DNA from: a virus
IMG/VR virus record: IMGVR_UViG_3300005329_000018
Coordinates: 1-37,768 of that record
DNA: 37,768 nt
Reading direction: 5' to 3' (one strand)
A program made the translations under genes and the position numbers. This document shows positions 2,117 through 7,524 of the stretch, in pieces. Position 1 is the first letter of the stretch. Every line of letters starts with the position of its first letter. Below the pieces are notes generated by a model that worked only from the letters and a program-made list of their open reading frames with translations, was not told the origin of the DNA and searched no databases.

Positions 2117-2379
2117 TCAGTCTTTCTTTCGTGTTTCTTATGGGCAATGAAGTACAGAGAATTAATCTGTGCTCCCTTAACGATAAAGTAATGATCCTTG
2201 TAGGTATGAAGGCGGTAGACTTCGATGGTTACGGTCGTACCATCCGGAAGACGATCTGATCTAGAGTTGTGGATTGTTCCGTACACTAAGCCATTGACGA
2301 ACCTGAAGTTACGCAGCTCGGCTGTAGGGTTCTCCTCTGACCACTTCCTTTGACTCCATTGCTTGCGGTTCCCGGTCAT
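2113..2379 (-). CDS. Hypothetical protein, 88 aa
   Basis: An 88-aa basic protein starting MTGNRKQWSQRKWSEENP and ending in a Lys/Arg-rich tail. The middle (DGTTVTIEVYRLHTYKDHYF) reads as beta strands, so a small OB- or Sm-like barrel is possible but not shown. The start has a good GAGGAAG ribosome-binding site and lies inside the 3' end of the primase-helicase gene, overlapping it by 71 nt in another frame. The stop shares ATGA with ung. No function was recognised. Confidence 0.65.
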   Translation of the reverse strand: MTGNRKQWSQRKWSEENPTAELRNFRFVNGLVYGTIHNSRSDRLPDGTTVTIEVYRLHTYKDHYFIVKGAQINSLYFIAHKKHERKTE

Positions 2380-3913
2380 TTGCTGCTTCCTCTTTGAACG
2401 TGTAGGTATCTCGATCGAAGATCAAGCTACCCACGTTACCAGTGATACCAGGGTAACGACTAATGGGAATAGCCAAACGAATTGTGTTTCTCTCTACCGC
2501 ACTCTCGGACATCATGTCTCTGGTTGCATTGATTTGCAAATCACAGACCTTAGTTAACCAACGTGAGCCGCGTGTCTGACCTAGGTCATTGACGTGGCTC
2601 ACCATGATCAACGCGAAATCCAACTGCTTGACCATCATCTCCAATCGAGTGGAGAGGTAGTCAATTAGTTTTCTCTCGTCGTTACCGCCAAGAATTCCGC
2701 TAACAACCATACTGATGTGATCCACAAGAACATACCGACAACCACGGGCCGTAACGAGAAACCGAACAAGATCGAGGAAATCTCCGGGATCATCGCTCCC
2801 AAAGTGAGAATAAACATGCAGCCGGCCATCCACCTTAACCACGTTCTTGAGGGCACCAATGATTTCATCGCGGGGACGATCCGTCTGCGGTAGGTGGATC
2901 GGAACCCGCATCTCAATGCCAGCCAGAGCCTGAAGATGACGTTGCGGAGGTTCTTCGAGGAAGATTGATCCGACATTGTCGTTAGTCTCCTTCAAGATTT
3001 GATGTTCGATGAAGTGCATCAATTCAGTCTTACCCACCTTTTCCTGTGCGGTGATTAAGACTGTCTCACCTGTGCGTATTCCATAAGTGAAATCATTTAG
3101 TATCTTGAATGGATAAGGCAAACCAATCTTCTTGGGATTATCTAAGATCGTCTCGAACTCCGAGAAATCCGAGACGATGTCTTCGGGTAAATACTGCTTG
3201 GAATTCCACCACACCTTCTTCAGTTGTTCAGCTTCTCCAGCCACGAGGCAAGCATTTGCATCCTTGTGTCGAGTAAAGCGTACAACGAAGACTTTGTGGT
3301 AATCAAATAGGCTCGCGACGCTTCGGACAGCTTCGCGACCTGCTTGATCACCATCGAAGGCGAGGTAGATCCGTTCGAATGAATTGAGCCAATCATAATC
3401 CACAGTGCAATCCCGCTTGGCAGAAGAACTGCTTTGCACACTGACCACAGGATATTCACCGAGGACCTGATGAAGCGAAAGAGCATCTAGTTCTCCTTCT
3501 GTTATTGTCACGAAGCGTGACTGGCCGGCCGAGAATTTATCACGACCAAATAAACCGACCGGAGGATGATCCTTCTTGGTACGAAAGTCTTTCTTACTTA
3601 AATCCCTAATCTTAAATTCACCGTTAGGATATTTATAACCAATCTCTATGGGCTTACCATCTGTATCGATCTTGGTCTTAACATCGTAGAACGTCATCGT
3701 TTCCTTGGTGACTTCTCTCCAAGGTAAATACTCATAGGTATATTCCAAGTTATCCTCTTGTTTCTTATTTGGTAAATATAAATACTTACAACTAAAACAA
3801 TAACCGTGCCCGTCATCATAGAGGCAATAACCATCGCTACTAGGACAGACGGGACACGGTATGTGTCGTTGAACAATCTTAGACCCAGGGCGGGTCGGGC
3901 GGGTCGTATTCAT
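2309..3913 (-). CDS. T7 gp4-like DNA primase-helicase
   Basis: A 534-aa protein. The N-terminus has a zinc-binding domain with CPVC (C20, C23) and CFSC (C39, C42), spaced as in T7 gp4. A TOPRIM primase core follows, with TITEGELDAL (E139) and AFDGDQAGRE (D187, D189). The C-terminal RecA-like helicase has a Walker A loop EKVGKTE (K295, T296) after GIRTGETVLI, and a Walker B YVLVDHI (D398, H399) followed by NDERKLID, very close to T7 gp4. It would unwind DNA and make lagging-strand primers at the fork. It overlaps both neighbours. The partner DNA polymerase is not in the window. The upstream ribosome-binding site is weak, suggesting coupling to the gene before it. Confidence 0.93.
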   Translation of the reverse strand: MNTTRPTRPGSKIVQRHIPCPVCPSSDGYCLYDDGHGYCFSCKYLYLPNKKQEDNLEYTYEYLPWREVTKETMTFYDVKTKIDTDGKPIEIGYKYPNGEFKIRDLSKKDFRTKKDHPPVGLFGRDKFSAGQSRFVTITEGELDALSLHQVLGEYPVVSVQSSSSAKRDCTVDYDWLNSFERIYLAFDGDQAGREAVRSVASLFDYHKVFVVRFTRHKDANACLVAGEAEQLKKVWWNSKQYLPEDIVSDFSEFETILDNPKKIGLPYPFKILNDFTYGIRTGETVLITAQEKVGKTELMHFIEHQILKETNDNVGSIFLEEPPQRHLQALAGIEMRVPIHLPQTDRPRDEIIGALKNVVKVDGRLHVYSHFGSDDPGDFLDLVRFLVTARGCRYVLVDHISMVVSGILGGNDERKLIDYLSTRLEMMVKQLDFALIMVSHVNDLGQTRGSRWLTKVCDLQINATRDMMSESAVERNTIRLAIPISRYPGITGNVGSLIFDRDTYTFKEEAANDREPQAMESKEVVRGEPYSRAA

Positions 3914-4804: not shown

Positions 4805-6253
4805 TTACGCCGCCTTCTTCTTGAACTTGTCGAAGGGGTTCGGCTTCTTGCCGCCACTGACGGGCGGCGGAGCCGGCGGAGGATCGACCGGCTTGTCGTC
4901 GAGCGGCGTCTCCGGCGCCACCGGCTGGTCTTCCTCGATCTTGGTATCGGTCGTGGTGTGCGTCGGCTCTTCGACCATGAACTTGGTCAGCTCGGTGCTG
5001 AGTTCCGTGATCAGGAGTCGGATCGGAACCGTATCCTTTTCCTGGATGCACCGGCTGACGAACCAATCAATCACATCGTCGTCCCAACGCAGGACTTCGA
5101 TCAGGTCCCGTCCCATCTGAGCAGACCACGGTGCCGTCTTGGGGCCGTTCTTCAGGTCATCCGGATTCAGGACCTGGGCGCCAGTGATCGCCTTGACCTT
5201 GTCGGACTCCAGAAGCTCGTTCAAGATGTGCCGCGTCTTCTGCGTGATGATAGGGGCAAATCGCTTGTACTTGGGGTTGACCTTCTCCAGCTTCTCCCGC
5301 AGTTCCTTGCCGGCCTCTGCGAGTTTCTGATACTTGCCCGCATTCTTCGCCAGCCATTTGTCGTTCGCCGGAGCATCTGCTCCAGCCATCATCTGTTCCT
5401 TGGTCAGGCCGATCGAAGCCGCGTCGGTGTTCTCGTCGTACCACGCATTGAGCTTCTTCCAGTCCCTTTTCTTCACCAGATCATCCGGTGGATTGATCAG
5501 ATACGGAGGCTTGACCGCCGTCGCGGTCTTCGCGTTCTCCTTGGCAATCGAGGTGACTGCCTTGGTATCCGCGATGACCGGCGGGTTCTCCGCCACCTGC
5601 TTGTTCTTCCGGATCATATTCAGGAACCGGTTGGACAAAGCCTTCTGCTCCGTCGAGACGTCCTTGGACGATTGCTCGACGAAGTCCAGCCTGTTGGAGA
5701 CACGACCCCACGGGAAATCCTGTCCCGCCGGGTTGTGCTTCTCGAACCAGAACGCGCGGCCAGTGATGGTGTACAGGACCAGAGCGCCGCGATGATCGCA
5801 GAAGTTCTCCAGCGTGGCCTTGGTGGTCTTGTCGTCCAGTTCGTCCTCGAACTTTTTCAGGTCACCGCTGCACGTCTTCTCGTAGGTCTTGATCAGGAAC
5901 TCGGCGATGTCCGCCAGGACTTCCTGCTTGTAGTCGCCTTCGATCACGCCGACGACCAACGTATTGTTGTTCTCGTCCGTGATGAACGGATACGGCGGCT
6001 CCGTCTCCTCCGGCAGCTTGTCCTTCAAGGCATAGAAAGCGTAGATGGCGTGGTCGTTCTTGTTGGCTTCGAGGTCCTTCATGAACCCCTCGAAGTCAGG
6101 CAGTGCATCGTTCCAGCCGCAGACCAGTTCGGGCGTGCCGTCGTTGACGGCGGTGGCCGAGGCGATGAGTGAAGAAAATGACTTGTAGACACGTTCCAAG
6201 TATTGCTTGGGCGGAACCTGCCCTGACTTGACCTCGATGATCGTACCTTGCAC
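4805..6253 (-). CDS. Large unknown early protein, GC-rich gene
   Basis: A 482-aa protein with a GTG start at 6253, supported by AGGAG eight bases upstream. Residues 1-150 form a probable globular domain containing CDHRGALVLYTITGRAFWF and FPWGRVSNRL. The middle is Lys/Glu-rich and helical (KLAEAGKELREKLEKVNPKY). The last 60 residues are low-complexity, with PPPAPPPVSGG and a basic end FDKFKKKAA. The FPWGR-type segment faintly recalls class II amidotransferase-like proteins, but no catalytic N-terminal Cys is present. The gene is clearly more GC-rich than the right arm. It stands alone between an RBS motif shared with two other genes and a terminator. Function unknown. Confidence 0.8.
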   Translation of the reverse strand: MQGTIIEVKSGQVPPKQYLERVYKSFSSLIASATAVNDGTPELVCGWNDALPDFEGFMKDLEANKNDHAIYAFYALKDKLPEETEPPYPFITDENNNTLVVGVIEGDYKQEVLADIAEFLIKTYEKTCSGDLKKFEDELDDKTTKATLENFCDHRGALVLYTITGRAFWFEKHNPAGQDFPWGRVSNRLDFVEQSSKDVSTEQKALSNRFLNMIRKNKQVAENPPVIADTKAVTSIAKENAKTATAVKPPYLINPPDDLVKKRDWKKLNAWYDENTDAASIGLTKEQMMAGADAPANDKWLAKNAGKYQKLAEAGKELREKLEKVNPKYKRFAPIITQKTRHILNELLESDKVKAITGAQVLNPDDLKNGPKTAPWSAQMGRDLIEVLRWDDDVIDWFVSRCIQEKDTVPIRLLITELSTELTKFMVEEPTHTTTDTKIEEDQPVAPETPLDDKPVDPPPAPPPVSGGKKPNPFDKFKKKAA

Positions 6254-6811: not shown

Positions 6812-6836
6812 AGCCTCCTTCTTTCGGTTGGAGAAG

Positions 6837-6924
6837 TGGTGCCCACCGCCGGACTCGAACCGGCAAGACCGGAATGATCGAGGGATTTTAAGTCCCTTGC
6901 GTCTACCTATTCCGCCAGGTGGGC
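6837..6924 (-). tRNA. tRNA-Leu (anticodon UAA), CCA encoded
   Basis: The minus strand gives a complete class II tRNA of 88 nt: a perfect 7-bp acceptor stem (GCCCACC with GGTGGGC), discriminator A, and encoded CCA. The D arm is GCG/CGC around an AATAGGTAGA-type loop. The anticodon arm is AGGGA-CTTAAAA-TCCCT, with anticodon TAA. There is a long variable arm, and a T arm GCCGG-TTCGAGT-CCGGC. It resembles bacterial tRNA-Leu(UAA). Its first 18 nt are also the last six codons, including the stop, of the NYN gene. Confidence 0.96.
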
Positions 6925-7452
6925 GCTGATCTGACTCTGTACTTCCGGATCAGCTAAGTCAATCACTCGGGCTGCTGCATTCCGCAGCATGGTAGCCAAC
7001 ATGCCACCCTGGCGGGATGCAACAACCGTAACCGGCACACCCTTACTCTGTAATTCGTGGACGAGAGGCGTGAAGTCACCGTCACCAGTGACCAACACGA
7101 TCTCGTCCACGTACTGACACATACGCAATGCATCGATGGCGATCTCAATGTCCATGTTACCCTTGACCTTGCGAACGCCATCGACTTGAACCCAGGACTT
7201 GGCCATCTTGGTGACTACATTGTACCCTCCTTTATCCATCAACCAGTCCAACAGCGGTTGAATACGACGATTGCCATCCGGCGTCTCATCCACAGCGGTG
7301 TAGTAGCCCCACCATACCACCTTCGTATCTCTCCGCATGAACAACTTCTTGAACTTACCGTAATCGATACGGAGTTCAATCTGATTGGCCATGTAGAACA
7401 GGTTCGCGGCATCGATATACACTGCGCATTTGTTCGTTAATCCACCAAACAT
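6907..7452 (-). CDS. NYN-domain (PIN-like) ribonuclease
   Basis: A 181-aa protein of the NYN/LabA (DUF88) type: AVYIDAANLFY near the N-terminus (D14, N17), KGNMDIEIAIDAL in the middle (D101) and LVTGDGDFTPLV (D124, D126). These give the acidic metal-binding site of PIN-like nucleases. Family members cut RNA, so an RNA substrate (tRNA or mRNA) is likely but not shown. The start follows the GGGAGCACACA ribosome-binding site. The 3' end is odd: the last five sense codons and the TAG stop lie inside tRNA-Leu, in frame exactly from the tRNA's first base. A hairpin terminator stands just upstream, so expression may depend on read-through. Confidence 0.85.
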   Translation of the reverse strand: MFGGLTNKCAVYIDAANLFYMANQIELRIDYGKFKKLFMRRDTKVVWWGYYTAVDETPDGNRRIQPLLDWLMDKGGYNVVTKMAKSWVQVDGVRKVKGNMDIEIAIDALRMCQYVDEIVLVTGDGDFTPLVHELQSKGVPVTVVASRQGGMLATMLRNAAARVIDLADPEVQSQISAHLAE

Positions 7453-7470
7453 TGTGTGCTCCCATCAAAC

Positions 7471-7517
7471 AAAAATAGCCCGGCAGCCAGTACACGGAGT
7501 ACTGAACTACCGGGCTA
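7471..7517 (-). terminator. Rho-independent terminator / attenuator before the NYN gene
   Basis: On the minus strand, TAGCCCGG pairs with CCGGGCTA (8 bp). An inner CAGTAC/GTACTG stem (6 bp) closes on a five-base loop, and the hairpin is followed directly by TTTTT. It lies between the basic 194-aa gene and the NYN start, only 19 nt before that start codon. I find no convincing promoter between hairpin and start, so it may act as an attenuator rather than a full stop. Confidence 0.8.
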
Positions 7518-7524
7518 CGAGTTA

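Follow-up and report, generated by a model that had tools for sequence, protein, structure and literature searches.

Overlap of an NYN-domain gene with a phage tRNA-Leu(UAA) appears to belong to the genomic site and not to the nuclease-like gene

What does it mean for a phage gene that its stop codon lies inside a tRNA on the same strand? The window analysed here is a whole IMG/VR record of 37,768 bases, a podovirus-like genome of an uncultured phage whose terminase, connector and capsid matches are all distant, as are its relatives among isolates (Celeribacter P12053L, Lentibacter ICBM, Roseobacter SIO1 and Vibrio ICP2). An NYN-domain gene of this genome runs into a tRNA-Leu (Table 1), and both the coordinates of ORF and tRNA and direct reading give an exact result: the stop and the last five sense codons of the gene are bases 1–18 of the tRNA. 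Positions 6924–6907 of the minus strand read GCC CAC CTG GCG GAA TAG (A H L A E stop) in frame 1 of the mature tRNA, that is, in frame from its first base, and since the last NYN codon ahead of the tRNA is AGC, the predicted RNase P cut falls at a codon boundary. An earlier note on this DNA had suggested that tRNA processing strips the stop from a shared NYN–tRNA transcript and that nuclease, tRNA and ribosome rescue might form a feedback loop; the shared transcript and the stop removal stand as predictions, and the feedback finds no support.

Table 1 Features of the window and of the matching site in relatives (L numbers are labels of phage records).
Feature	Position	Strand	Basis or remark
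Primase/helicase gene	2309..3913	(-)	phrog_239, E 5e-123; handle for finding syntenic relatives
482-aa gene of syntenic block	4805..6253	(-)	weak homologues in L113-L115, L152
Putative membrane protein gene, 182 aa	6263..6811	(-)	positional counterpart in relatives
Shine-Dalgarno AAGGAGG of 182-aa gene	6814..6820	(-)	sequence; between tRNA and ATG
tRNA-Leu, anticodon UAA, complete with CCA	6837..6924	(-)	ARAGORN; RF00005, 56.4 bits
18-nt NYN/tRNA overlap	6907..6924	(-)	direct reading; tRNA bases 1-18
NYN-domain (LabA-like) gene, 181 aa	6907..7452	(-)	PF01936, E 8e-27
Shine-Dalgarno GGGAG of NYN	7459..7463	(-)	sequence; 6 nt upstream of ATG
Terminator-like hairpin, then TTTTGTTTG	7475..7518	(-)	about -32 kcal/mol, z -5.2
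Relatives with tRNA-Leu(UAA) at the site			L286, L318, L331, L337-L339, L343, L354, L355, L357, L359
Frame of the ORF in the tRNA			L286 3, L343 1, L354 2, L355 1, L357 3, L278 1
Distance of ORF stop from tRNA base 1, nt			L286 53, L343 21, L354 37, L355 99, L357 53, L278 93

The protein scores 94.9 bits against PF01936 (cut-off 24.2), and its best structural match is PDB 2QIP (E 6e-12), a match by both sequence and fold. The homologue alignment gives four conserved acidic residues (D14, D101, D124 and D126), which, with the AlphaFold2 model (mean pLDDT 93.6), indicate that the window protein has the acidic active-site residues and the predicted fold of an NYN protein. In that model the last helix extends to residue 175, residues 177–181 are encoded within the tRNA and the final residue has a pLDDT of ~47; the fold is thus predicted to end where the tRNA begins, and truncation at this boundary would leave it intact. 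No close relatives of this NYN protein were found by single-sequence scans of viral and genome contigs or by tblastn on phage isolates.

The hairpin upstream of the gene ends 23 nt 5′ of the NYN ATG, too close for NYN to have its own promoter in the interval. The gene itself contains no sigma-70-like promoter match, although the phage's own promoters may differ from sigma-70. Both observations fit co-transcription, from which we infer that NYN and the tRNA lie on one transcript; a cut at the tRNA 5′ end would then leave the NYN mRNA without a stop. In folds predicted for the co-transcript, the acceptor, anticodon and T stems formed at most of the lengths tested. A fold 1.9 kcal/mol better than the cloverleaf stems appeared at one context length, and the predicted 191-nt fold had no cloverleaf; the alternative fold was rejected, as the cloverleaf stems were optimal at all but one tested length. 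The tRNA itself has a fold z-score of −2.7. Its encoded CCA is followed after 25 nt by the start of the putative membrane-protein gene. With an intact tRNA, and with no integrase found in a scan of window genes, a reading of it as an attachment site was set aside.

Syntenic relatives were sought through the primase. DNA similarity to isolates was confined to other tRNA-Leu genes. The window primase is 45–63% identical to those of the relatives and ~40% identical to the closest isolate primase, while the primase alignment found no match among genome contigs. In the primase tree the sister of the window is L280 (the same record as L156; support 100/99), in which the order of terminator, NYN, membrane-type gene and primase is that of the window and NYN is followed by a 34-nt gap in place of a tRNA. 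The tRNA was therefore gained or lost there. A hairpin matching that of the window precedes NYN in this sister phage. Identity between the two phages is 59% for the primase, 63% for the uracil-DNA-glycosylase (UDG)-like gene and 35% for NYN, and since similarity of the genes between these is weak or absent, their equivalence is positional. Membrane-type ORFs are syntenic in L149, L156 and L276–L278; the 182-aa gene has no significant pairwise similarity to its counterpart in L156, and a search for relatives of this gene after the tRNA found none. At 1053–1472 (−), beside a UDG-like gene, the window also encodes a HAD domain (PF18143, E 5e-22) similar to those found in Swiss Army Knife RNA repair proteins.

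Eleven primase relatives carry a tRNA-Leu(UAA) at the matching site, 2.7–3.8 kb before the primase and between a terminator and the membrane-protein gene, and ~15 others have NYN instead of the tRNA upstream of the primase. Among the primase relatives examined, only the window has both. This co-occurrence is rarer than expected (Fisher p 0.03, from a hand tally uncorrected for ancestry and including some incomplete contigs), and across L280–L359 NYN and tRNA-Leu(UAA) are nearly mutually exclusive in the slot. Such a distribution bears on an NYN-specific feedback, in which the NYN RNase would act on this tRNA or its transcript and so regulate itself. The NYN/PIN-like fold, the conserved acidic residues and the physical overlap speak for that idea, but NYN and tRNA occur together less often, not more often, than expected and are alternatives at the site in other phages; no tRNA was detected beside viral NYN homologues at ~60 loci with flanks of up to 3 kb on each side; and the other ORFs that overlap the tRNA are unrelated to NYN. 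The C-termini of the NYN homologues compared likewise end without any tRNA, in tails of any length, two of them (L102 and L145) earlier than the window protein. A circuit specific to NYN is accordingly very improbable. What is kept in the relatives is the site and its tRNA, with a different gene.

That gene is mostly a small CxC/CxxC protein. In six relatives (L286, L343, L354, L355, L357 and L278; of these, L343, L354, L357 and L278 are the same records as L152, L154, L149 and L151) a small ORF of this type with a Shine-Dalgarno sequence enters the tRNA with no earlier stop, so that in these and in the window a translatable ORF directly before the site tRNA is stop-free up to it. The pairs come from at least four lineages and use all three frames. 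Small CxC/CxxC proteins, ~40–60 aa long up to the tRNA and without a convincing match in Pfam or NCBIfam, are linked to tRNA-Leu in these six and in L331, L337 and L339. In the latter three the small ORF has its own stop further upstream, and they belong with L318 and L359 to five relatives that have a terminator hairpin shortly before the tRNA and no overlap (the hairpin of L339 was read from the sequence, the hairpin scan not having listed it); overlap is therefore not obligatory. The repetition of the overlap at the same position with a different gene suggests that it is a feature of the site and not of the nuclease.

The ORF shared by L343 and L357 allows the coding reading to be examined at the level of substitutions. 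Codon differences between the two are 22 synonymous and 10 non-synonymous, the differences fall 10/6/25 over the three codon positions, and this pattern indicates that the ORF is a real gene, constrained at the protein level as far as the tRNA. The body of the ORF is conserved and the frame of its tRNA-coded tail has changed, which favours genuine translation into the tRNA and a tail whose sequence is unconstrained.

The site can be described as a unit of hairpin, optional ORF and tRNA. Phages with ORF overlap have a strong hairpin 23–47 nt before the ORF in all cases except L343, and since a terminator-like hairpin precedes the slot gene in most relatives, or the tRNA in several without an overlapping ORF, transcription seems to enter the slot by read-through. 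A hairpin before the slot gene was seen in the window, L280, L286, L354, L355, L357 and L278.

How often genes run into phage tRNAs by chance was gauged from 107 unrelated phage tRNAs that have a Shine-Dalgarno-led ORF of ≥40 aa ending within 100 nt. Same-strand overlap occurred in 11 of them and reached ≥12 nt in 7, so it is uncommon but not unique. Its length in the window is set by the tRNA, as the D-arm consensus of tRNA-Leu carries stops: among 101 distinct phage tRNA-Leu, a frame-1 stop ends at base 18 in 20 and a frame-2 stop ends at base 22 in 73. These figures lend something to the view that the overlap is pure accident, a tRNA having landed, by insertion or relocation, in the 3′ end of a gene where the D-arm consensus happened to give a stop, with compaction as the only consequence. 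About 10% of the other phage tRNAs with a nearby ORF are overlapped, often through the tRNA's own UAG (bases 8–10, as in tRNA-Val and tRNA-Thr), and the identical 18-nt overlap recurs in L148/L150 with tRNA-Leu(CAA) and in L194 with tRNA-Leu(UAA). The overlap nevertheless turns up at a single site in four lineages or more, which exceeds the background, and accident is an improbable full account. Elsewhere, a small ORF (KITFNEYC.FHPP) enters tRNA-Leu(UAA) in frame in five phage contigs (L163, L168, L194, L253 and L274), with a spacer before the tRNA that varies in length among them.

At the site, overlap was found for 6 of the 7 tRNAs with a qualifying ORF (window included, L278 lying outside the length filter) against 11/107 in the background (Fisher p=3e-5), and for 4/5 when lineages are counted (p=0.001; the window, L286, L355, L343+L354+L357, and the non-overlapping L318). 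Three of the phages were included in the search alignment on account of their tRNA, many forks of the tree are open, and a single ancestral stop loss may underlie the homologous ORFs. The excess could point to a selected switch, in which stop removal by RNase P feeds ribosome rescue and couples a low protein output to tRNA production whatever gene lies upstream. All seven ORF–tRNA pairs lack a stop before the tRNA, in three frames and with tails of unequal length; for six ORFs, the stretches after the last Cys would all be stop-free with a joint probability of 3e-4 in the absence of constraint; and the tail differs between L343 and L357 over a conserved body. Stop-free stretches are, however, expected if the ORFs are simply coding, as L343 and L357 show, the counts are inflated by shared ancestry, and the relatives with a terminator and no overlap manage without such a device. 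We regard the selected switch as unlikely, and it is doubtful that this podovirus group keeps a site which deprives any gene before tRNA-Leu(UAA) of its own stop as a gene-independent switch between translation and tRNA maturation.

The reading we prefer, with a probability of roughly 0.6, is that a tRNA-Leu(UAA) cassette lies flush against a terminator-preceded gene in a compact phage operon and that the resulting either/or is a by-product of packing which the phage tolerates. The 5′ end of the tRNA also serves as the last codons and stop of the preceding gene, NYN in the window phage. From general ribosome and RNase P biology, a ribosome finishing NYN would cover and melt the 5′ half of the tRNA, so that RNase P could cut only during a pause in translation, and translation and tRNA maturation would exclude each other in time. 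With the stop inside the tRNA, one RNA cannot serve both as complete mRNA and as mature tRNA. The cut mRNA, its last codon complete but no stop left, would pass to tmRNA or another form of ribosome rescue, the truncated protein (176 aa) would keep the whole predicted fold, and this forced either/or would cap late NYN synthesis. The NYN–tRNA pair of the window is a single example; that the either/or is tolerated packing and not an NYN-specific circuit is most likely, and a tolerated effect is also more likely than a selected switch.

The nearest analogue is tRNA punctuation in mitochondria, where mRNAs end at tRNA 5′ ends and nonstop mRNAs arise (PMC9674279, PMC4624183); a bank vole paper contrasts the 2-nt TAG/tRNA overlaps annotated in rodents with stops that, by RNA-Seq, lie upstream or are completed by poly(A). 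As in mitochondria, the window tRNA directly flanks the coding 3′ end on the same strand and RNase P is predicted to set an mRNA end that can leave no stop. The window differs in that 18 coding nt, the complete stop codon among them, lie within the tRNA. No partial stop (T or TA) precedes the predicted cut; as the pre-cut sequence ends in a full codon, poly(A) could not complete the NYN stop. Bacterial mixed mRNA–tRNA operons such as secG-leuU also place a tRNA between coding genes, from which it is released by RNases, and the window would resemble them in its single transcript, but coding genes there end before the tRNA and NYN ends inside it. In arfA, an RNase III cut inside the gene gives a nonstop mRNA and tmRNA tagging; there too RNA processing removes the stop and feeds ribosome rescue, as is predicted from sequence for the window, but the cut is made in a dedicated hairpin with a known purpose, whereas in the window it would be tRNA maturation. 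Among phages, mycobacteriophage Fionnbharth has a tRNA-Lys that, as in the window, overlaps a protein-coding gene (gene 37; PMC10865867). There gene and tRNA lie on opposite strands, and maturation of the tRNA therefore leaves the mRNA uncut, unlike the prediction for the window. Same-strand phage gene/tRNA overlap treated as regulatory was not found in searches of open-licence papers. The synteny, namely recurrent gene-into-tRNA overlap at one site in relatives, is what the sequences point to as new here. Because a coding gene that overlaps a tRNA is suppressed by some annotation pipelines, pairs of this kind may escape notice. A site of repeated overlap offers a natural test of translation against tRNA processing on one bacterial RNA, and it bears on whether phages limit a protein via ribosome rescue.

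The window phage uses UUA for 113 of its 712 Leu codons in a genome of 47.6% GC; the codon is thus not rare there, and its usage by itself decides nothing on the role of tRNA-Leu. Phage tRNAs are treated as counters to tRNA-cutting defence in PMC10264068 and PMC11555353, and this is a plausible role for the tRNA of the window.
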